In this document: positions 13,061 to 31,560 of the stretch, one piece after another | How positions within the stretch are numbered: position 1 is the first letter of the stretch | How the letters are laid out: each line of letters begins with the position of its first letter | Assembly (NCBI GenBank): GCA_029204225.1 | Contig: MU832152.1 | Location: forward strand, 1 to 64,000 | DNA from: Diphasiastrum complanatum | Taxonomy: Eukaryota > Streptophyta > Lycopodiopsida > Lycopodiales > Lycopodiaceae | DNA length: 64,000 nt | Direction: 5' to 3' | Position numbers and translations under genes: made by a program | The notes under the pieces: generated by a model | Told to the model about the DNA's origin: nothing | The model's input: only the letters and a program-made list of their open reading frames with translations | Databases searched by the model: none

Positions 13061-13527
13061 TAGGAATGAAAGCACATGGGACCTGCTATCCATTAATCTA
13101 ATCCTTGGTTGCTTTTGTCGAAGACAAAGCAAAATGTTCCAGAGCAGAAGAGAGGACGACAAGAAACTCAACAACATATGTTTTTGCAGATCTATGTTGT
13201 TCATCAAACTCAAAAATTTGGGAAGTAGTACTTGATTCGGGAGCCATTTCACATTTTGTTTCCTCGAAACAAATTTTATCTAAGTACAAGAAGACAAACT
13301 ATTCGAGGTTCATTATTCTTGGAGACGGTTCTAAGCACGTGGTTGATGGAACTGGTGTACTATGGCTGGACATGAATCAGGGAGACAAGAAACTAGAGGA
13401 AGTTCTCTATGTCCCTACTCTTGATAAAGATATTCTATTTGTAGCTAAGATAGTCGATACAGACATGTTAGTAACCTTCACAAAGAACTCTTGTAAACTG
13501 TTCAAGGAAGATTCTTATAGCATTAGG
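13061..13527 (+). pseudogene. Copia-X part 1: gag end and protease, interrupted by the H3-carrying transposon
   Basis: The frame at 13105-13536 contains VVLDSGAISHFVSS, the DSGA retropepsin motif of copia protease, then FIILGDGSKHVVDGTG and EEVLYVPTLDKDILF, which lead into the GAG-pre-integrase domain. It breaks off after KLFKEDSYSI where the left terminal repeat of the 8.3-kb transposon begins. Its continuation is at 21788. Closely similar to the corresponding part of Copia-2 at 27450-27760. Confidence 0.85.
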
Positions 13528-13555
13528 GGATATTAGAATTCAAAATGGGCCCTTT
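13521..13555 (+). repeat. Left terminal inverted repeat
   Basis: Begins CATTAGGGGATATTAG and ends CAAAATGGGCCCTTT. It is the inverse complement of 21753-21787 (29/35) and of 31526-31560 (34/35). Confidence 0.75.
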
Positions 13556-13966
13556 GTCAAGATGCTGTTTTTGACTTCGCACGCTTTCAACGCTTATGTG
13601 TCCCAATAAATGGTGTCCATCTGTGACGAACTGTAACAGTGGTTGACAGACGAAAATTGTATTTAACTTTCCTGGCCAAATTTTCGTGATTTTCAAATAT
13701 CCTGTCGGTCAGAACAAACAATTGTGATTGGACCACAGTTACTGCCCGAATACTCTTATGTTGCCCGTCATTGTTCACTCGAGGTTTATTTGACGTCAAT
13801 AGTCATAAACTATGGTTAACTAATCCTAGTAGTTAAGGAACTTCTTGTCATTCATAGGTATACCTCTCATTTTCTTAATTCTATCTCTCATTTTCTTGTC
13901 ATTCTTAGGTTTACCTCGCAATGTCTACATTCTCTCTGATCTCAGCTTGCGTACTTGTATTTTCGA

Positions 13967-14161
13967 CTAATGGCTACACATAATCAAAGACCAAGAGGAA
14001 CCATTGATGCAATCAATATTTGCAATGAAAAAAATGCAGAAGATCAATGGATACCAAGAATATATCAAAAATATCAATGGATTTTGATGCATCCCTCTGC
14101 AAAAAGCTCTTTCCGAAAAAGAAAAAGATCGGATAACATATATAGAAGCTCTTGGAGATAA
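13967..14161 (+). CDS. Small basic ORF near the left end of the transposon (unrecognised)
   Basis: Starts MATHNQRPRGTIDAINICNE and ends in a Lys/Arg/Ser-rich stretch (SSFRKRKRSDNIYRSSWR). It could be a short DNA-binding protein or a first exon. No homologue is recognised and no support beyond the open frame. Confidence 0.25.
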   Translation, partial: LMATHNQRPRGTIDAINICNEKNAEDQWIPRIYQKYQWILMHPSAKSSFRKRKRSDNIYRSSWR

Positions 14162-14549
14162 CAGTGAAAAGAAATGACAACAATCTTGCAATGGTTGAGG
14201 TCGAGGAAGATCGGGTCTCAATCACATTCGATCAGAACTAGACATGTTGCAATTCGATCTACCTCAGTACTATCAATTTCGATTGAATGGTATAAAGGTA
14301 CGTTATGCCATATAAAAATATTTATTTTTTTCTATTTCTAAGTGAATCAGTTTCATAAAATATATAACTAAAACAATTTCTCTTGTGCAAGTAAGAGTAA
14401 GGCAGGAAGAGCATATAAAATGCAAAGACATTGGAACATCCATCAAAATTGAAGACCATAGATTATGAACTATGGAATTTTGTATTATGTAATGCAATTT
14501 TTTTGTATACATCATTTTTGAAAATATATGAACCACTTTTTTTATGAGG

Positions 14550-14702
14550 CTCTTTCATTTCTATGATCTCCATTTCCATGGTGCAAAACACAATGTAATT
14601 GCAACTGAATAATATGAGTTTTTGATAGCAAGATTCATTGTCTCCTGCAGGAAATGCACTATCTCCATTGGGGAGATCTTCAGTCACTTGAACTCCAGTG
14701 AT
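14550..14702 (-). pseudogene. Duplicate terminal exon of the Ulp1-like gene
   Basis: Minus-strand reading gives SPMEIVHFLQETMNLAIKNS, colinear with SPMEIMHFRQETIKLVIENS at 15301-15205. The downstream text also matches (EMEIIEM against EMDLEIIDS). An in-frame stop precedes it. This is a tandem, diverged exon duplication ~600 bp downstream of the first copy. Confidence 0.6.
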
Positions 14703-15129
14703 CACTATAATCGACGCTTGCCATTGTTGAAGTCTCGTATATATCGGTTGTATTTTTGGTCTTCATTGCCTTGGTCTGTATTGTCCTTGTCTTGGCATAT
14801 TTGGATATGTTCCGATGATGATCTGATCAAAGCTTTGCTGCAACAAATCTAAGTGAACTAATGTCGCATTTTTGGATTGGTTGTGGCAAAGGTTCGATCA
14901 AATCATCATTCTGAACTTATCCAAAAAAGACCATGGTAAAGGCAAGGCAGACCAAGGCAATGAAAAACAAACATGTCAAAAAATAGTAGAAATTGAAGAT
15001 GAATGAATCATAATCTGAATTGATAAGAGGAAAATTAAGAAGTAAGAACAACCATAATAAAACTGTAAGTATATTTCTATTAAAATTTTCTGTACATGTG
15101 TCTCATCCACATCAAGTGAGATGAATATT

Positions 15130-15885
15130 TAAACAAAATCAACTATCTATGATCTCTAAATCCATTTCTCCAGTTGGAAGTAGCTTGGGTGGAGAACACT
15201 AGGCCACTGCAACTGGATATGAATTTTCAATCACAAGCTTTATGGTCTCCTGCCTGAAGTGCATTATCTCCATTGGGGAGACCTTTGGGCATTTAAAACT
15301 GTAATTAATCAAAGATCAGTTAATAGGAATTTGTATATGAAAAAAACAAAAACACAATTAAAAGTAATTAATTGAATATTACCTCTTCTAGATTTGGAAG
15401 TCCATCTTATAATGCAAGCCAATTAAAAAAGTGTTTGGCAGTGCATACGGTATACCAACCACAGCTGACAGAATCAACCTGCTGGGAGTACTGTAGAATC
15501 CAAATTTGAACATTATGAGATATCGGATCAACGCGTAGGATGTAAGACTAAAATCTACAATGGAAACAAGCCCGCGTCAAACCGATATCAAAATTTTTTG
15601 ATTGAATATCGGATTAGCGCACACGTTGGGAAAATAAACCAATCAATAACTACAAGGGCGCATTGAACCGATATTGAAAAATTTATACCTCTGCATCAAC
15701 CATTTTTAGCTTCGAGTATGCTTTTGCATTTGGTACTGGAAAGAGTTCCAGTATTTTCTATATATGGGTCCTGGCAATTGTGTGTGTGTGTGTAATAGAT
15801 TTCATCTTCAAACAAACTGGATTACACACACCCTCATCATTGACGTACATGGACAACACATATAAGCTCCAATGATAACTGAAAT
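15130..15885 (-). pseudogene. Ulp1/C48-like cysteine protease, multi-exon, decayed
   Basis: Three exons can be read. The first (about 15885-15689) has HWSLYVLSMYVNDEG, the catalytic His-Trp of SUMO/adenain-type proteases, and ends AYSKLKMVDAE before a GT donor. The second (15490-15383) has YSQQVDSVSCGWYTV, with the conserved Gln and the nucleophilic Cys in QxxDSxSCG, and ends LPNLEE before GT. The third (15301 down) has FKCPKVSPMEIMHFRQET. The Asp expected after the His (usual LHLDSL) reads KMKS, so the catalytic triad is broken, and stops occur at THI*K and LAL*D. Ulp1 domains are common cargo of plant and fungal DNA transposons. The N-terminus was not found. Confidence 0.6.
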
Positions 15886-16388
15886 CAGAAAATAAGAAAT
15901 TTTTGAGAATCAATGTGAAATCGAAATTCATATGAAAAATTCAATAAAATAAAATCTGAAAAATAGACACTTTGTTATGTATGGCAGCACGCAAATTGGA
16001 GTCCCCAGTCTGACGTATTGGAGCATATCATTGTGCATACTTTTGAAATCAAGAAAATTAAATGCTGCCATAAATTGAAGGGAAAACAATGTAGCATCTT
16101 TAAACAATGGGATCTAAAAGAACTCCATCCATTACTTAATTGCCCCACCTCCTACATTGTCCCCTAGCATTTTATCCCTACTTTCTAATTCACCAGTATC
16201 TAAACTAGAAAGGGGGAGACCAGCATTGGTCTTCGGCATCCTAAAACTATATCGAGGACTAAACCTTTAATATACGTGTTTAACAATTGGTCATACTGTA
16301 CATATTGAGAACTATTTACAAAGGCAAGTGCAGGGGGTGACAGAAGTAACACTGATAAAGCACATAAAGAATTGTCATTCAAAATTGA

Positions 16389-17193
16389 TTATACCTTTAC
16401 ACTAACAAAATCATCTAAATCACTTCCAACAACAGGAGGAGGAGAACTAATATTTACGAGTTTAGGAGGAGGAGGAGATTTAGGAGGTGGAGATTGGTTA
16501 AGAGAGGAAGATTTAGCAAGAGAAGTTAAAAATGGAGTGGAAGGAGAAGAAGGAGTCTTAGGAAGAGAATTAGGAGGAGAATGCCTAGAAGAAAGAATAG
16601 TATTCAGAGGAGATGGCTTGGAAAAATCCCTCGCTTTAGATGGAGGGTCGAGAGAATCTTTTTCTTTGAAACACTCCCGTTCTGTATATGAATAACAAGC
16701 CGGGTTGGTTGAGATTGCTTTCGTTTTCTCCTCTCTGAATCTTGTTTCAGGAGGAGAGGAGGGAGCAGGTCTAAAATATTCAGCAGACTTGTCATATGTG
16801 TCCCAAAGCCTGAACACAATGTTGAAATCCTTGGGCATGATGGTCACCCTCTTGGCATGGACAGCTGCAACAACAGTATCAAAATTTTTTTTATCTGAAA
16901 ATCCTCACATGCTGTTTGCAGTGTCTCAATTGCCGTTACCGTCCATCTCACATCTGCAGATAGACTTCTTGTCACCTGCTTGATGGACCTCTGTATGTGA
17001 GATTTCTGAGTCAGAAGATTATTTGTCTTCTGAAGCTTTCGAATATCCTTGAGCCAGGGTGGGTCTCTTCTTCTGCCCCTTGGCCTAGGAGGAGGTGGTG
17101 GTGGACGAGGTGGTGGTTGTGGATTTCCCTGACCTGCACCTGAAATTGGTATTTCACCTGAATGCCCTCGTGCTATCTGCTTGGTGCATGCCA
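16389..17193 (-). pseudogene. Histone H3-like protein with Pro-rich N-terminal linker and long Pro/Ser-rich C-terminal tail; one frameshift
   Basis: From the ATG at 17193 the protein starts MACTKQIARGHSGEIP, against MARTKQTAR of canonical H3. A poly-Pro linker (residues 25-38) and an Arg patch follow. From residue 48 (LKDIRKLQKTNNLL) to TLQTACEDF it aligns without gaps to the H3 alpha-1/loop-1/alpha-2 region (LREIRRYQKSTELL to ALQEACEAY). One base is missing after ACEDF near 16890. In the next frame DKKNFDTVVAAVHAKRVTIM then PKD matches the end of alpha-2 and alpha-3, with HAKRVTIMPKD identical to H3. The H3 C-terminus is replaced by FNIVFRLWDTYDKSAEYF and ~110 Pro/Ser-rich residues ending in SDLDDFVSVKV. 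There is no loop-1 insertion, so it looks derived from canonical H3 rather than CENH3. The missing base may be real or a sequencing error. Confidence 0.85.
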
Positions 17194-18541
17194 TTACTGT
17201 GTAGTAGCGGATCAGCACGCGATAATGTTAATTTCAGGATCAAACCTCAGGTCGGACGTGTCGAAGCGATACCTGAGCTAAACAATTCCATTAGCGGGTA
17301 GCAGATGGGCACGAGCGACTAGGAACGGATTGAAGAAAGTTGTTTTCGAGCATGCTGAATCGATATCGCATGGATACAAATAACTATAAGCAAAAAAATT
17401 TCTATGTCGTCGATCAGTATATATATAGAGAAAATCAGAAATGATTACAAACGTGGTGGCTCGTATTACGATGATGATTAGTCCATATCAAATTAACCAG
17501 AATTAATTTCAAATAAGTAGGGCAATTAATCACACTTCTACCATTTAATGCTAAAATTGACAATGTTAAGCTTTAAATATAAGACCTTTTTTATATCCAA
17601 TAATTATAATTTTGGAAGATTCCAAAGGCCAGATTTTCACCTGATAGCTAATCAACGTGCCTATAAAGAATTTGACAACCATAGTATGTATTCACGCATG
17701 CTCATCCGATATTGGACACAATATGAATGATAAGAGCTTGATTTGATAACATAACTTTGGCCAGTATGAAGGGTCTTCCGAATCAAGCTTTGATCATGAA
17801 TATAGAGTCCAATAGTTTCAAAAATTTCGATAATATTTTGGTCTTGGAATAGCGATTCGACGCGCGTAGTCCAAATGCAGCAAATACATCGTCTGCCAAG
17901 CCCGCTGATCCGATATCCCATACGCAGAAAAATCATACTGGAACGCATAATGAAAGACTAAAAATGTTTTGAATGAACATTATCTCAAAAGAAAAAATTT
18001 CGTCTTTACGGTGCTTAAATAGGACGAGAGATTGTAATAATTCTCCTCATTCACGTTTTTCAATGATATCCATAAATCAATTGTTTATAATTTTTTTAAT
18101 GATTATTCTAGGAGGCTACTGATTGTCTATTTAATGTATTTCGGCGCAGGGCTAATGATGATTCTTTGAATCTAGTACTAGACCAGTTAATGTATTTCGG
18201 CGTAGGAACAAATTAGTTATTTGACAAATGTATGGCTGTGATCAACAGGAATTGGCTATAAATATGTGTCCCACTTTCCATATTTCGATTCCGTAATCTT
18301 TTATTCTGAACTCTCTAGCCATATTGTTTTTCTTCATTCTCCTGATATCGAATCGACCCGCGCCATCCCTTGTTGTGCATGCTCGTATTCATTCAAGTGC
18401 GCTGAATCGATATCAGCCACTTCCGACCAGTGCTTTTCGAAAAATTCATTCTCGGCTTTACCATATCAGATCAGCGCGCCCACTTTGCTTTATTCCTCTA
18501 CCGATATTTATCTAACGCATTGAACCAATATCGGATTCAAT
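17194..18541. promoter_or_regulatory. Divergent intergenic region with repeated GATATCGGATCA-CGCG-like motifs
   Basis: Between the H3-like gene (-) and the orphan ORF (+), variants of GATATCGGATCAGCGCG recur in both orientations: about 17202-17222, 17357-17375, 17704-17716, 17900-17919, 18342-18365, 18399-18418, 18462-18480 and 18510-18535. More lie at 15517-15537, 15571-15590, 15604-15624 and 15657-15676 beside the Ulp1-like exons. Likely binding sites for an element-encoded or host factor. Function is inferred. Confidence 0.5.
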
Positions 18542-18952
18542 ATGGCTAGTTCCTCCATGGCCTCAGATGACAAACTTATGGATTTTTTTAATACCTGTGA
18601 CATTCCATCAGACAAATTAGAGTATTTTGCTAGTATTTTTTTTGCTCCCTTCGATAATAATCCATATGCAACCACTATGGCCATCAAATCATTATCAGTT
18701 TGTTTAGGAGGCCATAAGTACGCAAGAGGAACATATAAAATAATTTTTGTGAAGAGAGATTTGGCTATTAAGATATTGGGTTATACTCCCAATGAGACTA
18801 CGAAAAGATCATTTGCAATGGCCCTTTATTCGGGTTACATTGACATGAGCAAGAGGAAAAATTTAGAATTTTTGGATCCATATGAAAAAAGATTATTCCT
18901 TCATGACAATACCATCCGTCTGAATCTTGAAGAGGATGATGATGATAATTAA
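18542..18952 (+). CDS. Orphan 136-aa protein with acidic C-terminus
   Basis: An intact ORF starting MASSSMASDDKLMDFFNTCD and ending LNLEEDDDDN. It has a Ser-rich start, a mixed helical-looking middle (VKRDLAIKILGYTPNETTKR) and a strongly acidic tail. No signal peptide or zinc motif is seen, and I recognise no domain. Its start lies 30-80 bp after two copies of the dispersed motif, and it is divergent from the H3-like gene. An acidic tail next to a histone gene suggests a chaperone-like partner, but that is speculation. Confidence 0.5.
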   Translation: MASSSMASDDKLMDFFNTCDIPSDKLEYFASIFFAPFDNNPYATTMAIKSLSVCLGGHKYARGTYKIIFVKRDLAIKILGYTPNETTKRSFAMALYSGYIDMSKRKNLEFLDPYEKRLFLHDNTIRLNLEEDDDDN

Positions 18953-18981
18953 ATGATTTTCTGTAATAGATTTTTGATATA

Positions 18982-21381
18982 TTACAAGGATCTCTCTTTT
19001 GTAATGAATTTGAATGCCTTTCGAAATATCGTAATATTTGGCAAGTTTTTAGCTTGATATCTATATTGTGCTCTTCTGTAAAACCACTGAAAAAGTTGAA
19101 CTAAATATTTATTTCTTGAATTGTGTCCTCCAGGATTTGTTGCTCTATGAAATGCTCCCCTTGCTTGCCAATGAGATTTTTCCATGCCTTGTGATGACCA
19201 GATACTTAAGCTCCCATATTCTTTTGCAAAATAAGTTGCATGATGAAGAAGGATTGGCTGCAAACAATAGTTTTGATTAGTTACATTAGTAGAAAATATA
19301 AGTCTGAATGAGAAAAGTACTAGGTAATGATATAGATTAGCACCATGTAATGAGTAACGTTGTCTTTTTCCCAACAATCATGTACAATTTACAAATGTGG
19401 TGCAATGATTTTGCAAAGTCCTCATATCTTCTGATGATAGGTTTTCTTTCCTGATAATACCTATGAGTTTGTTTAAGTTGGTCCACACTTGTCCCTTTTC
19501 CACTCGATTACTTCCTTCCGATGTTCGTGTGGCTTGAACAATTTCTCTCCAAATTTCATATCTGACACTTGATTCTTTGCATGTGTGATTGGATAAGAAT
19601 CTTCTTGCTTTAGCACCTCTAATTGATGGCTTAGGAACGTTTCCTTTTTTCCCTGAGAGTAGCAATCCTTCATGCAATAAAGACATGGATGCTTTGATGT
19701 TGCCCAATGAGAGACATTATACATACATTTTAATGTTTTCAAATCCCCTGCAAGGTGCCATTGAATTTGAAAACTTCCATGGTTTTCGACTTTAAATTTC
19801 TCACTTTCCAAATGTCTCTTTATAATCTTGCCATAATTTGTTCTTGAAAATATCCATGATAGTATTTTATGGTCCTCTTTCAAGACCTGTAGAGAAACAA
19901 GTAATGCATGACATGTCAATAAAAACTGGCAAGGTATGAATTGTTAATATAGATATTCTAAATGAAGATTGAAATGTATACCTGTAATGCTGCCAACCAC
20001 CATATGTGATTTTCCGATTGAACACTAAACGTTCGATCATCTGTATCTGAAATTTTGTTCATCAAAGTGACACTCACACGTTCCAACTTCTGACCCTTGA
20101 TGATTTCAGATTCATCCAATTTTATTACAATAATGATCTTTCCAATTACTTTATGTTCGTCTAGTTTATAGAATCAAATAATGTATTTTAGAACATTTTC
20201 AATATCAAGGAAAATATTATTGCAGTCGTTGTAATTGAGCTCACCATATTCTGATTTGTATAATTCAATTATATGAAGTGGTTGGCGAACTACTTTGAAC
20301 ATTCCGTCATTATAAAAAATTTCTAGCTAATCTTACTCGATATGGACGCGAAAGATTAATTTTCTTCACTATCACTGGGGAAAAAGCTTCTTTAACTATT
20401 CTAAAAAAAGTAGAATAAGCATTTCTGCTAATTTCAGATACATCACATGCACCCAAGTATGATTGAACCTTAATCAAAAAAGTCTCTACAATTTCATTTT
20501 TCATTTTTTCAAACCGAGCATTTTTTATCATTTCCTTTGCTAACTTTCTTGGTAAAACATGACTTAAAGATGATCCAATGCATGAACGATATGTTAAATA
20601 GTTCTTTGCCACCAGACACGGTCTGCACAAACATATGAAACTCAAATTATGTTTAATAAATAAATAATCCATGTTATCAAGTGCAAATCAAACTTAAATG
20701 ACATATACAAATCAAATAAACAGTTCAGATGACAACATATTTCAATGCTCGAATTCTTTTTTTCTGATTGCCACTATGTGTAGATAGGTCATCAATATTC
20801 TTCATCGGTACTCTCTTTCTTTTCCTCTTCATCATTGCCTTATTGATAACTTTTAAATCAACAACAGATTTTAAACTCTCGGATTGCAACTTTTCCATGG
20901 ATTCTAACATTTCTTGGTTTGATCCTCGAAGAGTTGTGACAGTTGCATTTAACTCTGACATAGCATTCTTGAGTGCATTGTTTTCAGCACTAGTGTGTTG
21001 CACATAATGAAGCAATTGTTGATTTGCACATTGCAATTGTTGATTAGCAAACTGTAATTGTTGATTCAGACAAGCTATTCTATGCATTCCAATATCACGC
21101 AACCTTTGACAATATCCAAGTAATCCACTATCTCCTTCACATACATATTTAAGAAAATGAGTTACGGACTTAAAATCTGGACACAAATCGGTAGCTGGAT
21201 CATTAAGATAAATTGATCCATCCACCCACAAATCTATATTCATATGATTATTCATTCTCAATTCTCTAACTATTGCTGTAGCATTCTCTACAACTTTCGC
21301 ATTTTTCTTGATAATTGTAGTGCATTCCATCGGAAGAGCAACATGGAAATGGAACATTGCCATTGTTAAAGCTATAATCAT
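18982..21381 (-). pseudogene. Transposase-like multi-exon gene of the TIR element
   Basis: Exons read on the minus strand: (1) 21381-20735, with Gln-rich coiled-coil repeats (NQQLQFANQQLQCANQQL) and a basic KRKRKR segment; (2) about 20639 down, after TTTGTGCAG, starting RPCLVAKNYLTYRS; (3) about 20290-19990, containing IIIVIKLDESEIIKGQKLER (candidate first catalytic Asp) and ending WWLAALQ before GT; (4) about 19889 down, with WHLAGDLKTLKCMYN (candidate second Asp) and TSKHPCLYCMKDC; (5) after TTGTTTGCAG near 19261, GSLSIWSSQGMEKSHWQARG. The GD-x-K, SK-x-PC-x-YC and SQGMEKSH combination is typical of large eukaryotic transposon proteins with an RNase H-like core, whose family I cannot name. 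A TGA near 20180 and another near 19380 suggest decay. Confidence 0.65.
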
Positions 21382-21752
21382 GTAAATGAATCTACCTACA
21401 GTAAATCAATATGAATAGATCTAGCATTCTTTACTTTTGTAATGTTTATGTCGCATTGAAAAATCGTCCTGCCTCATATTTACTATAAGCATACAGTGAT
21501 TACAAAAGTTTTGCCTCTCCAGCTTCAGTTTTTGCATTGAGCACACCAAGATTTTCAGTCTTAAAGCTCTAGTCCCAAATTTTGGAATGAGCATGAAGAG
21601 AAGTTATCACATCTCATGCTAAACTAACTATGCTCTGAAGTTAACCATACTAGTTAAACGTCGGGCAAGGCCGAAAACTCAGAAAACGGCGACCAGAAGT
21701 TACCGGTTTGCATTCTCTCTCTACGTAACCTCTCTCTAAAGTGAAATTTCTT

Positions 21753-21787
21753 AAAGGGCCCATTTTGAGCCCATATTTCCCCTAATG
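21753..21787 (-). repeat. Right terminal inverted repeat
   Basis: AAAGGGCCCATTTTGAG through CCCCTAATG, inverse complement of 13521-13555 with six differences. Confidence 0.75.
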
Positions 21788-22338
21788 CCTAGTTGCTAAA
21801 GGCAACAGAGAAGGAAATTTGTATCACCTGAACATTCAATCAAGAATCGAACAAGCCAATCAAACTTAGGAATCAACAGATATATTGTGGCACAAGAGGC
21901 TATGTCACATGAACATGGAAGCCTTGTACCAAGCCAACAAAAGTCAGAGAATCAAAGGAGTCGAAATCAAAAGTAGAGATATTCGAACTACCTGCGAATC
22001 CTGTCTTAAAGGCAAAATGTCTTGAACACCTTTCAGTAAAGAAGTTTATAAAGCAACCAAGGTACTGGAAATTATGCATTTAGATATTTGTGGACCATTC
22101 GGAGTGTTGTCATTGGGTGTTTATTGATGACTTCAGCAAGTTTGCTGTAGTATACTTTATTTGTACAAAATCAGAAGCCTTTGAGAAATTCGTTGAGTAT
22201 GCGAATTGGGCTGAGAAGCAAACAGGCAGCAAGTTGAAGCAAATTCGCAAAAATCATGGAGGTGAGTACATTTCCAATGGATTCAAAGCTTTCTGTACTG
22301 ATCGAGGTATTATGCACACAAAGACAACATCAGTGTAA
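21788..22338 (+). pseudogene. Copia-X part 2: GAG-pre-integrase and integrase core
   Basis: Starts LVAKGNREGNLYHLN, the continuation of the protease part at 13105-13527. It then reads through a degenerate zinc-finger region to VFIDDFSKFAVVYFI (first Asp of the integrase DDE core), RKNHGGEYISNGF and CTDRGIMHTKTTSV, where homology stops at 22338. Close relative of Copia-2 (27770-28310). The second Asp (TDRGGEY in Copia-2) has become Asn-His (KNHGGEY), so this integrase was already inactive. Confidence 0.8.
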
Positions 22339-24440
22339 GCATTAAAAAAACATAAAGTGATTATCAACTGAGGTTTTTTATGATCCAGAGCTACCTAGAA
22401 GGCATAGCAATATATTTTGCATGTCATTGATAAAAAGAAAGCTAAAGTGGTTCATTGATGTGTATATGGTAGACAAAGTACATAAAAAAAGAGATGCAAT
22501 CTTTAGCATGAAATGAAATGAACCACTTACCATAAGATAGTATCCGAAGAAGGAAGACTTGGTAGGGCACAATCACAAGAGGAGAAGAAGAATGAGCTCT
22601 CTTCAGAAAGTGTTGTGGGAGAAATGGTCGAAACTGCAAGGTATATATAGTGGTATTCGGTGGGGTTTCATGGAAGGTGTCTTTTTGCCTTGTAAGAGAA
22701 GTAACACATCTTGTCCATCCATTATGGCTAAGCTTAAAACTTGTTTAGAGCTAATCTTGAAAAAAAGGAGGGAGATTTGAATTGATATGGTGCAAGATGG
22801 GGGTAGTATAAGTTAAGGACCTTTAACTTGGAATTTTTGACATTTGGTCATTGTCCGGTCGTAATGGCATAGAGAGACTCTATTAAATGAAGAAGAATCC
22901 ATGAGAGAGTAGCACAAATTTCACATAGTCCCCCTTGAAGAAGTCAAGACCAAATCCTTTGAATCCTTTTGTATTACAGCATAACAGGTTCAACTGAAGT
23001 TGAAAAAAAATTATAGTACAAAGCACCATAAAGTGAAGGAAGTTTTAGATTCCCAGTTGTTACCTGCCAACATCCCGCAAAACACAGCCGCACGAGTTAG
23101 TTTAGTGAGGAAGACAGGTGTCATAGCTGAGCATCAGTTGTCATCCATGTTTGAAACAAGATTCGCTATCAGCTTAATTCGAAAGTACATTCATTAGTCC
23201 AATCTTCCTTATCATGCATTTTATCACATCGTAGGTCTTGCCCTAATGTCATCGTATCAGGGCATCCACCATAGTGATCAGTATAAGACAAATATTCCTA
23301 TTATTATATAACAATTTCATAGCTTAAAATGACGAAGCCATAGTCAATCACAACAAGTGAAAAGGGTATAGTTTGTCCACAGGAGTGGGTAGTAGGGCAT
23401 ATCCATGCCATCTTGTACCCATCACTACCTGTGACTCATTTGGCACCTGATGGACTCTATGTACAAACGCTTGGGCAAATCCATGCCATTCAAGCTAACC
23501 TGGGAAAATCCATGGCATTCAGACTTACCAAACTCTGAACCAATTCAACAAATTAAGATTCCAAAAACTGTTAACTCATTAACTTGCTATAGTCCATTAT
23601 TGTGTTATAAAGCAACAAGTAAAGTGTGTAAGTTCTCATAGGTATCAGGGTGCCTCTGTAACATGCTGACCCCGAAGACTAGTATCTTTGATCCATGCTT
23701 TCCAGTGCCACTATACAAACACTTTAAATTGTGAATACGTACGAGCCCTAGCTTATTATCATTTACGTGGGTATGGTTGTTTAAATAGGGTTTACTTTGG
23801 TCATATGTATTGATAGTACTTCTTAAACGATTATGTATTTGTAATGTTTATTCGTACTTTGTAGGGTTTACTTTGCTTTTAAGGAGATACAAAATATAGA
23901 TGTTTGCAAGCCAAATACGATTTTCCCTCTGAATGTCATTTTTGAAAATCCGGACAAGTGCAAAGCGGGTTTGTAGCAATGTGCACATCACACCAAGTGT
24001 TTGAATCAACCAAGGAATCCGTCTTGATTACAAATATTTGATGTTTCTCTTTTTCCAATACTTTCACTTTTGATGAAATCATACTTGAATGTGTGTAGTA
24101 GATTCTTCTTGAGAGGTCAATATGATCGTTTCTTCCACTTGGTTACGACACAAGTCCTAATACCATTATGATTAACGAGCAACGAGTCTCAAGTTACTTT
24201 CACACATCCTTAGTGTCTCAAGACAAGCCATCGATTTGTAAGAGCGAAGTGTCTATTTGCCAAGGTCCACTTATTTTGCCATGAGGGATACATTAAGAAT
24301 GTCAAGCCGGGAACTTCGTTGTTTGTGATACCGTATTTAAACAAGTCAACAATTTTTCACATATTCCCTAATGAAAATTTGCTAATAAATTTTTGTTTAT
24401 ATTTGCAATCTAAATAACTTGATAATTTGTCATTGCAATG
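22339..24440. other. Unassigned DNA
   Basis: About 2.1 kb separate the Copia-X breakpoint from the next LTR. Short open frames at 22559-22780, 23000-23197 and 23450-23641 carry no recognised motif. Confidence 0.35.
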
Positions 24441-24885
24441 GTCATTGGAGCTTGTACATTTTGTCATTATATGTAAATAGTGAGGGTGAATGCAACCCTG
24501 TTTGTTGGAGATAAATTCCATAACACACACTCACAAGGCCGCAAAATCGCTTGTAAATAAAGTAATGGAGATCTTCTATATGCCAACCACAAGGGTATAT
24601 AAAGAACTCCAACTTAGAATTTGCTTCGAACAGGAACATAGATCATGCTACATAGTAACACAGACTGAAAACACTCTCCACACCAAGCTCACGTAGCAAC
24701 TGTATTTCTCAAAATGAAATTACACAGTACATATAGTTGTTCACTCAGGCAACCCATGCATGACCCAGGTTGTCGTTGGCGGCACGCGTGTCCCGTCGAC
24801 TTGCCTTGTGGCGAGGCCAACTGATCCTTATCAACTGACAACGCCCATAGTACAGTAGCACAATGATTCTATTTTAATTCTAACT
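24441..24885 (-). mobile_element. Copia-4 3' LTR, left end approximate
   Basis: On the minus strand GGGAGAGAG (polypurine tract) is followed by TTAGAATTAAAATAG at about 24885, directly downstream of the Copia-4 RNase H. The distal end is not fixed. Confidence 0.45.
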
Positions 24886-31525: not shown

Positions 31526-31560
31526 AAAGGGCCCATTTTGAGTTCTAATATCCCCTAATG
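31526..31560 (-). repeat. Third copy of the transposon terminal repeat
   Basis: AAAGGGCCCATTTTGAG through CCCCTAATG, one mismatch in 35 to the inverse complement of 13521-13555. It abuts the Copia-4 RT. No second end of an element was found nearby. Confidence 0.65.

Follow-up and report, generated by a model that had tools for sequence, protein, structure and literature searches.

We analysed a stretch of 64,000 nucleotides from the plant Diphasiastrum complanatum (assembly GCA_029204225.1, contig MU832152.1, positions 1-64,000; labelled C634 in the 1.74-Gb genome that was searched), hereafter called the window, and found that its positions 13521-21787 are a DNA transposon belonging to a high-copy family that has its own histone H3-like gene. 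The element is bounded by terminal inverted repeats (TIRs), is set within a copia pol gene and inserts without target-site duplication (TSD). Its anatomy and its status as a family are solid. Its H3-like part appears to be joined to a protease-like part of Ulp1 type in one gene, which may act against silencing by the host.

A transposon family with an H3-like gene

The 35-bp inverted ends given in a preliminary description of this DNA were found again on recounting, as 13521-13555 and 21753-21787 are complementary at 29 of 35 positions; the arms as detected are 36 nt long (13520-13555 and 21753-21788, 83%). The termini are CATTAGGGG...CCCCTAATG, which read CATTA...TAATG and are hence of the 5'-CA..TG-3' type. 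The interruption of copia pol on both sides was also borne out, with a Pfam match to Pol_BBD on the left (9.5e-14) and to rve on the right (6.9e-6, under Pfam's own cut-off), and with the junction matches described below. The window copy is internally deleted, and another copy, L010, measures 11,319 bp end to end. Locus L009 on C14 is 99.6% identical to the window copy across 9.9 kb, flanks included, so that C634 and C14 are probably two alleles of one place. Elsewhere in the window, a solo left terminal repeat stands at 31526-31560 on the minus strand, exact over 35 bp and with no matching interior adjoining.

When the whole genome was searched for the ends with up to three mismatches allowed and reversed sequences as control, 1022 left ends and 1241 right ends were obtained, with no match for either control. 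A 36-base segment of the third helix of H3 had 702 matches (control 0). A search with the H3 protein of the window, in which the best 150 of 7659 first-look candidates were scored, returned identities of 73-100%; the H3 matches listed are spread over all of C1-C23, and relatives of the transposase-like gene occur at no fewer than 150 places. A one-off host H3 pseudogene in the window copy is rejected by these genome counts.

The lists of ends, H3 and transposase matches are partial, and some pairs lie on allelic contigs. Among the matches listed, an H3 is located up to 12 kb away, with the side and strand as expected, for 15 of 133 left ends (two have another arrangement) and for 17 of 128 right ends (none has another arrangement). 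A same-strand H3 lies on the expected side within 10 kb for 38 of the 150 transposase matches listed, at distances of 2-9 kb, and no listed pair stands in any other arrangement (about 0.2 expected by chance). Nine listed pairs of ends could be joined into elements of 2.6-11.9 kb, the window copy and its probable C14 allele included. Six of these hold a listed H3 and span 8.3-11.3 kb; the 2.6-kb element and two elements of 11.9 kb have none among the matches listed. The latter two (C3:74360848-74372714 and C3:74409153-74421019) are both 11,867 bp long, lie 48 kb apart with a transposase listed in each, and are probably one segmental duplication.

The family has the properties that define a DNA transposon, namely defined inverted ends, many dispersed copies, unrelated sites and an intact empty site elsewhere. 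With 702 H3 segments, more than 1000 ends and a near-constant arrangement where both are listed, the proposed TIR-bounded element with an H3-like gene holds as a multi-copy family. The expectation that copies with the same ends carry the gene held only in part: no H3 of the window family lies within the approximately 10 kb fetched at 13 of 20 left-end loci, and most of these 13 match the window element over its first 0.4-2.8 kb only, which is what deletion derivatives or broken copies would show.

Insertion without target-site duplication

All 20 left ends that were fetched begin at one identical base, and they represent 18 distinct places with unrelated flanks, as L014 and L020 have common flanks and so do L023 and L028; one of the left ends reads GATTAGGGG. 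A TSD of 2-12 bp was found in none of seven copies with paired ends; in one of them a single base matches. When the two copia flanks were joined, all 40 of the listed copia copies matched the result across the junction, 38 of them over as many bases as the query stretch and the other two with a difference of one base. Four of these empty sites were read directly, and no bases are duplicated or lost at the insertion point. The element inserts without TSD, which for an element with TIRs is mechanistically unusual in itself. The left flanks of the 18 distinct places are A+T-rich and otherwise reveal no clear site preference.

The H3-like gene and its fusion to a protease-like part

The H3-type fold extends over helices 1-3, in agreement with the H3-fold gene described before: the Pfam Histone family matches copy L027 at 1.4e-20, and in PDB the C14 copy is matched best by histone H3.1 (8e-16), with Cnp1 of fission yeast slightly lower. 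The H3 of the window family is 37% identical to plant H3 over 132 amino acids, and the host's own H3 is found at 13 loci, 97-99% like plant H3. These host genes and the traces of CHG methylation described below indicate a land plant. The gene is frameshifted in the window copy, where eight consecutive A near codon 100 (16860-16925) mark the point at which the frame is lost and another takes over; in L009, the probable allele, it is open over 279 codons. Frame breaks near codons 98-106 are also present in L021/L034, L031, L032/L033, L035 and L046. L035 and L036 have identical aligned H3 codons apart from the break, so a sequencing or assembly slip may account for some of these breaks.

The tail was read, and the selection tests below were made, on 23 copies, that is, 35 aligned loci minus seven of other lineages (L062-L067 and L011) and minus five that were the window copy or near-identical. 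The commonest tail is MARTKQT(A/T)RGHSGGIPIS. Codon 5, which corresponds to K4 of H3, is lysine in 23 of 23 copies, codon 10 (K9) is glycine in 23 of 23, and codon 3 is variable (arginine in 11 of 22). After K4, the intact frames of L009, L027 and L036 have no further lysine until the first helix; of the conserved set of modifiable tail lysines (K4, K9, K14 and K27), only K4 has been kept in these frames.

In L036, one stop-free frame of 417 codons runs from before the H3 start via a proline-rich linker to ILVLPYI, where the protease part begins, and the exons that come next bear DHWSLYVLSLYVNDEGVCNPVCLKMNS and QQVDSVSCGWYTVCNAKHF. The order of the protease motifs, read by motif, is DHW ... 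NS ... Q..SCG, and we take the order H-(D/N)-Q-C to be that of Ulp1-type (C48) proteases. Of 20 H3-centred loci (a few alleles or duplicates included), 17 have the first protease segment after H3 and on its strand, and in all seven left-end loci that have H3 the segment comes after it as well. As judged from these frames, the H3 fold, the proline-rich linker and the putative Ulp1-like cysteine protease are encoded by a single fusion gene. A separate Ulp1-like protease had been described before; its motif order was recovered, but it is predicted to be one gene with H3, and it has no match in Pfam or PDB. Outside the element, at 24339-24535 on the plus strand of the window, lies an older relative, a relic that shares about 71-77% identity with the protease exon bearing the HW motif.

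Other H3-like lineages in the genome

A genome search with canonical H3 exposed a second, transposon-like H3 lineage and a third one. The second (L062, L063, L065, L066, L067 and positions 4171-4570 of L011; 214 matches to a 36-base pattern) is 47-59% identical to H3 in BLAST and has a long proline-rich N-terminus; inverted repeats were sought around the gene in L011, and no convincing ends were found. The third (L064, positions 98-741) starts with MDRKKQTRRD, is 54% identical to H3 and has a long C-tail. At least 150 matches to it were found, at 76-100% identity over up to 210 amino acids, and many copies have an open frame of about 340 codons. The three lineages are mutually 35-45% identical, and in all three the N-terminal helix starts with W-L and is two residues shorter. 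The two-residue insertion in loop 1 of CENH3/CENP-A is absent from all three, and the H3 tree did not resolve at depth.

Possible role of the fusion gene

As far as can be told from sequence alone, the H3-protease fusion might be the anti-silencing factor of the element, a tentative reading that we consider the likeliest of those weighed here, plausible though not quite probable. It is favoured by the loss of K9 and retention of K4, by the scars of CHG methylation, by the protease-like fusion and by the weak-to-moderate constraint, and the persistence of two further H3-like lineages was also counted for it. On this reading, the H3 part would be built into nucleosomes with host H4 as its partner, or it would compete for silencing enzymes. 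Nucleosomes with a K9-less H3 could not feed the loop of H3K9 methylation and CHG methylation that plants use on transposons, since the tail has an ARTKQ-type start with K4 kept and is without K9 or, in the intact frames read, any lysine from K4 to the first helix. The protease part may strip SUMO from silencing factors, or it may release the histone from the fusion.

Traces of methylation were counted in 15 of the 20 left-end loci, two duplicates and three loci without part of the stretch being left out. Changes of C to T (or G to A) relative to the majority affect 12.3% of CG cells, 10.4% of CHG cells and 2.4% of CHH cells, and A>G/T>C changes affect 0.9% of A/T cells in the same loci. This excess at CG and CHG points to past methylation of the element copies in both contexts. 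In plants, CHG methylation is tied to H3K9me2.

Constraint was assessed by comparing changes confined to one copy with changes common to at least two, in copies chosen by similarity. For H3 in the 23 copies, the single-copy changes are 84 replacements or stops against 38 silent (per-site ratio 0.88), and the shared changes are 61 against 44 (0.55). A second run used 21 copies, without two near-identical pairs, and gave 89:40 and 56:42. The difference is not significant for H3 alone in either run (p = 0.098 and 0.071). For H3 together with three protease segments, the counts are 216:90 for single-copy and 120:90 for shared changes (Fisher p = 0.0019), and in the 21 copies the fusion gene gave 232:96 and 105:83 (p = 0.0008). 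These results are consistent with weak-to-moderate constraint on the fusion gene; the constraint that was to be looked for in the H3-like gene is suggested for the fusion as a whole but is not significant for H3 by itself.

Several observations weigh against an anti-silencing role. H3 has been lost from many copies, and stops are present in 29 of the first 60 listed H3 copies. The protease part has no Pfam C48 or PDB match, and a genome search with PF02902 (C48) gave three hits, none at the places listed for these elements. H3 alone did not reach significance in the selection test, and the shared changes could include recurrent deamination. The heavy CG and CHG deamination of the copies also implies that the host silences them eventually.

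Alternatively, the H3 part may serve transposition, by anchoring the transposase complex on nucleosomes or on H4, or by aiding target choice, with the protease processing a polyprotein. This would fit the position of H3 and transposase, which share a strand in each of the 38 listed pairs (some allelic), and the unusual TSD-free insertion, which suggests an unusual integration complex. However, H3 is not fused to the transposase, the 18 distinct left flanks have only their A+T richness in common, and copies that lack H3 have also been mobile, perhaps with help in trans; we think this explanation unlikely.

It is also conceivable, but rather improbable in our judgement, that H3 is a captured host gene, a passenger by transduplication with no function for the element. 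Gene capture is frequent in transposons, many H3 copies are broken, as the stops described above show, and in the fungus Pseudocercospora fijiensis and its relatives all extra H3 copies were reported to be inactivated (PMC6710886). Against a passenger, the genome retains three diverged H3-like lineages, the family's own H3 is far from host H3, hundreds of H3 copies occupy one fixed position, and the shared changes in the fusion gene are less often replacements than the single-copy ones.

The W-L start and the N-terminal helix shorter by two residues in the three lineages, as in human CENP-A, and the LIP and RW positions that several of them have like plant CENH3 could indicate a CENH3-like mimic that places element DNA in centromeric chromatin or competes there. 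We regard this as very unlikely, given that the loop-1 insertion of CENH3 and CENP-A is absent, the listed copies are on all of C1-C23, the H3 tree did not resolve and the top PDB matches are to H3.1, with Cnp1 of fission yeast slightly below. Finally, a virus-like element whose histone packs its DNA in a particle would suit the size, the terminal repeats, the protease-like gene, several unassigned genes and the histones that some large DNA viruses encode, but it is extremely improbable, as Pfam scans of the open reading frames (ORFs) of the element gave no capsid, packaging or polymerase family above cut-off, and a transposon would account for both the transposase-like gene and the precision of insertion.

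Returning to the anti-silencing role, we speculate that plants hold a whole group of TSD-free DNA transposons in which a transposon-owned H3 that keeps K4 and lacks K9 is a core accessory gene, fused in the window family to a SUMO-protease-like part. On the DNA of the element, such an H3 would replace or poison that of the host and thereby keep the loop of H3K9me2 and CHG methylation from being maintained, and its lineages would descend from one old acquisition, as the W-L start and the two-residue-shorter N-terminal helix common to the three lineages suggest. This wider proposal is possible but doubtful. If it is true, transposons would counter silencing by supplying its substrate, an unmodifiable histone, and not an enzyme. 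In addition, if the anti-silencing reading is true, annotation of such a genome may automatically report very many "histone H3" genes.

Other features and the transposase-like gene

The features of the window copy are collected in Table 1. The transposase-like gene shares the strand of H3 and sits closer to the right end. Its candidate motifs, found by eye, are D (IIVIKLDES), D (HLAGDLKT), CxxC (HPCLYC), HxxxH (HHATH) and E (GSLSIWSSQGMEKSH), and the stretch from H(3)H to E reads HHATH...GMEKSH. The transposase-like gene of the preliminary description is upheld by these motifs but not by database matches: Pfam and PDB gave nothing convincing, the best Pfam match being a Borrelia protein family under the cut-off. 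The last stretch presumably resembles the segment of RAG1 that bears the final catalytic residue; hhalign against RAG1 aligned this 29-residue stretch with an E-value of 0.098 and a probability of 0.6%, which is not significant.

The first part of gene A was found in 19 of 20 left-end loci. A version of 336 residues was stitched from several copies, including sequence near the left end of L019, L016 and L023, and Pfam gave nothing above cut-off for it, the top match being DUF924 (E 0.0056).

Table 1 Features of the element copy at positions 13521-21787 of the window
Feature	Position	Strand	Remarks
Left terminal inverted repeat	13521..13555	+	Starts CATTAGGGGATATTAGAATTC; 1022 genome matches, reversed control 0
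Gene A remnant	13970..14312	+	Starts MATHNQRPRGTIDAINICNEK; internally deleted in the window copy; tblastn against longer copies
H3-protease gene, probable last exon	15202..15297	-	Starts FKCPKVSPMEIMHF
Ulp1-like exon, Q...C motif	15410..15496	-	SQQVDSVSCGWYTV
Ulp1-like exon, HW motif	15791..15892	-	YHWSLYVLSMYVNDEG in the window; DHWSL in most listed copies
Ulp1-like protease part, first segment	15970..16322	-	Degraded, with stops; shares one unbroken frame with H3 in L036
Proline-rich linker continuing the H3 frame	16389..16766	-	Similar linker in L036 (417-codon frame)
H3-like gene, loop 2 and helix 3	16767..16880	-	Starts HAKRVTIMPKDF; second frame, after frameshift at A run
H3-like gene, tail and helices to about codon 99	16898..17194	-	Starts MACTKQIARGHSGEIP; Pfam Histone 7.4e-11
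Gene C ("orphan" ORF)	18542..18952	+	Starts MASSSMASDDKLMDFF; shorter than the 344-codon frame of L010
Transposase-like exon with putative last E	18982..19377	-	GSLSIWSSQGMEKSHWQ; HHATY here, HHATH in L024, HHAIH in L010
Transposase-like exons with candidate D1 (IIVIKLDES), D2 (HLAGDLKT) and CxxC (HPCLYC)	19312..20399	-	Stretch after CxxC deleted in the window
Coiled-coil-like ORF	20725..21381	-	Strand of the transposase; perhaps its 5' exon
Right terminal inverted repeat	21753..21787	-	Ends CATATTTCCCCTAATG; 1241 genome matches, reversed control 0

Comparison with known systems

Membership of the hAT superfamily was rejected, as the element has no 8-bp TSD and its scanned ORFs have no Pfam match to a hAT transposase or dimerisation domain. 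The scanned ORFs likewise have no Pfam match to a transposase of Mutator-like elements; VANC itself was not searched for. Spy DNA transposons have TIRs and no TSD, and they insert between AAA and TTT. Our element shares the TIRs and the lack of TSD with Spy, but AAA precedes the left end at one of the 18 distinct places and TTT follows the right end in none of seven. The Spy transposase is related to PIF/Harbinger and ISL2EU (PMC4482050), whereas no Pfam match of this type was found in the element. The CMCT group, which comprises CACTA/EnSpm, Mirage, Chapaev, Transib (with RAG1), Plavaka, ESTA and Lanisha, is marked by C(2)C, H(3-4)H, mostly CA..TG ends and TSDs of 2-5 bp (PMC12730594). Our element resembles this group in its 5'-CA...TG-3' ends and in the C(2)C and H(3)H motifs seen by eye before the putative last E, but it differs in having no TSD of 2-5 bp in any of the seven paired copies, with which the empty sites agree. 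Because of this difference we do not file it as a member, and it may be a sister or offshoot of the CMCT group.

The preliminary description knew of no plant DNA transposon with a histone gene. This still holds: no plant transposon with a histone was found in the literature searched, which was largely open-access and included no bioRxiv preprints, and a word search found no "histone" in the main text of a 2026 review of plant gene capture (PMC13317346). From fungi, however, hAT transposons carrying H3 have been reported, in Pyrenophora tritici-repentis (H3L; PMC3538342) and in P. fijiensis and five relatives (PMC6710886). An 8-bp TSD is reported for P. fijiensis and C. zeae-maydis, and passenger capture (transduplication) of H3 has been discussed for these elements (PMC6710886). 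The plant element is like them in having TIRs, a transposase, a diverged or decayed H3, tens to hundreds of copies and deleted forms. Unlike them, it has neither a TSD nor a hAT match, and its H3 is K9-less, only 37% identical to plant H3 and one of three lineages. The parts of the literature consulted describe no protease fusion for the fungal elements, whereas the H3 of the plant element is fused to a Ulp1-like protease.

Researchers have found that VANDAL/KIU elements of Arabidopsis join Ulp1 to the anti-silencing protein VANC, and that a VANC-type protein recognises short DNA motifs and causes hypomethylation of related elements (PMC13317346). These are also plant transposons in which a Ulp1 or Ulp1-like part is joined to a chromatin-directed protein, but they are Mutator-like and, in the sections consulted, without a histone. 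The KIU elements are the closest functional parallel in plants. Fungal DNA transposons that carry TET/JBP indicate that chromatin cargo, proposed to act against silencing, is present in several lineages (PMC12730594); their cargo is a DNA-demethylating enzyme, whereas that of our element is a structural histone. A histone H3 in a DNA transposon is therefore not new in kind; what is new is the plant host, the protease fusion, the insertion without TSD and the two further H3 lineages.

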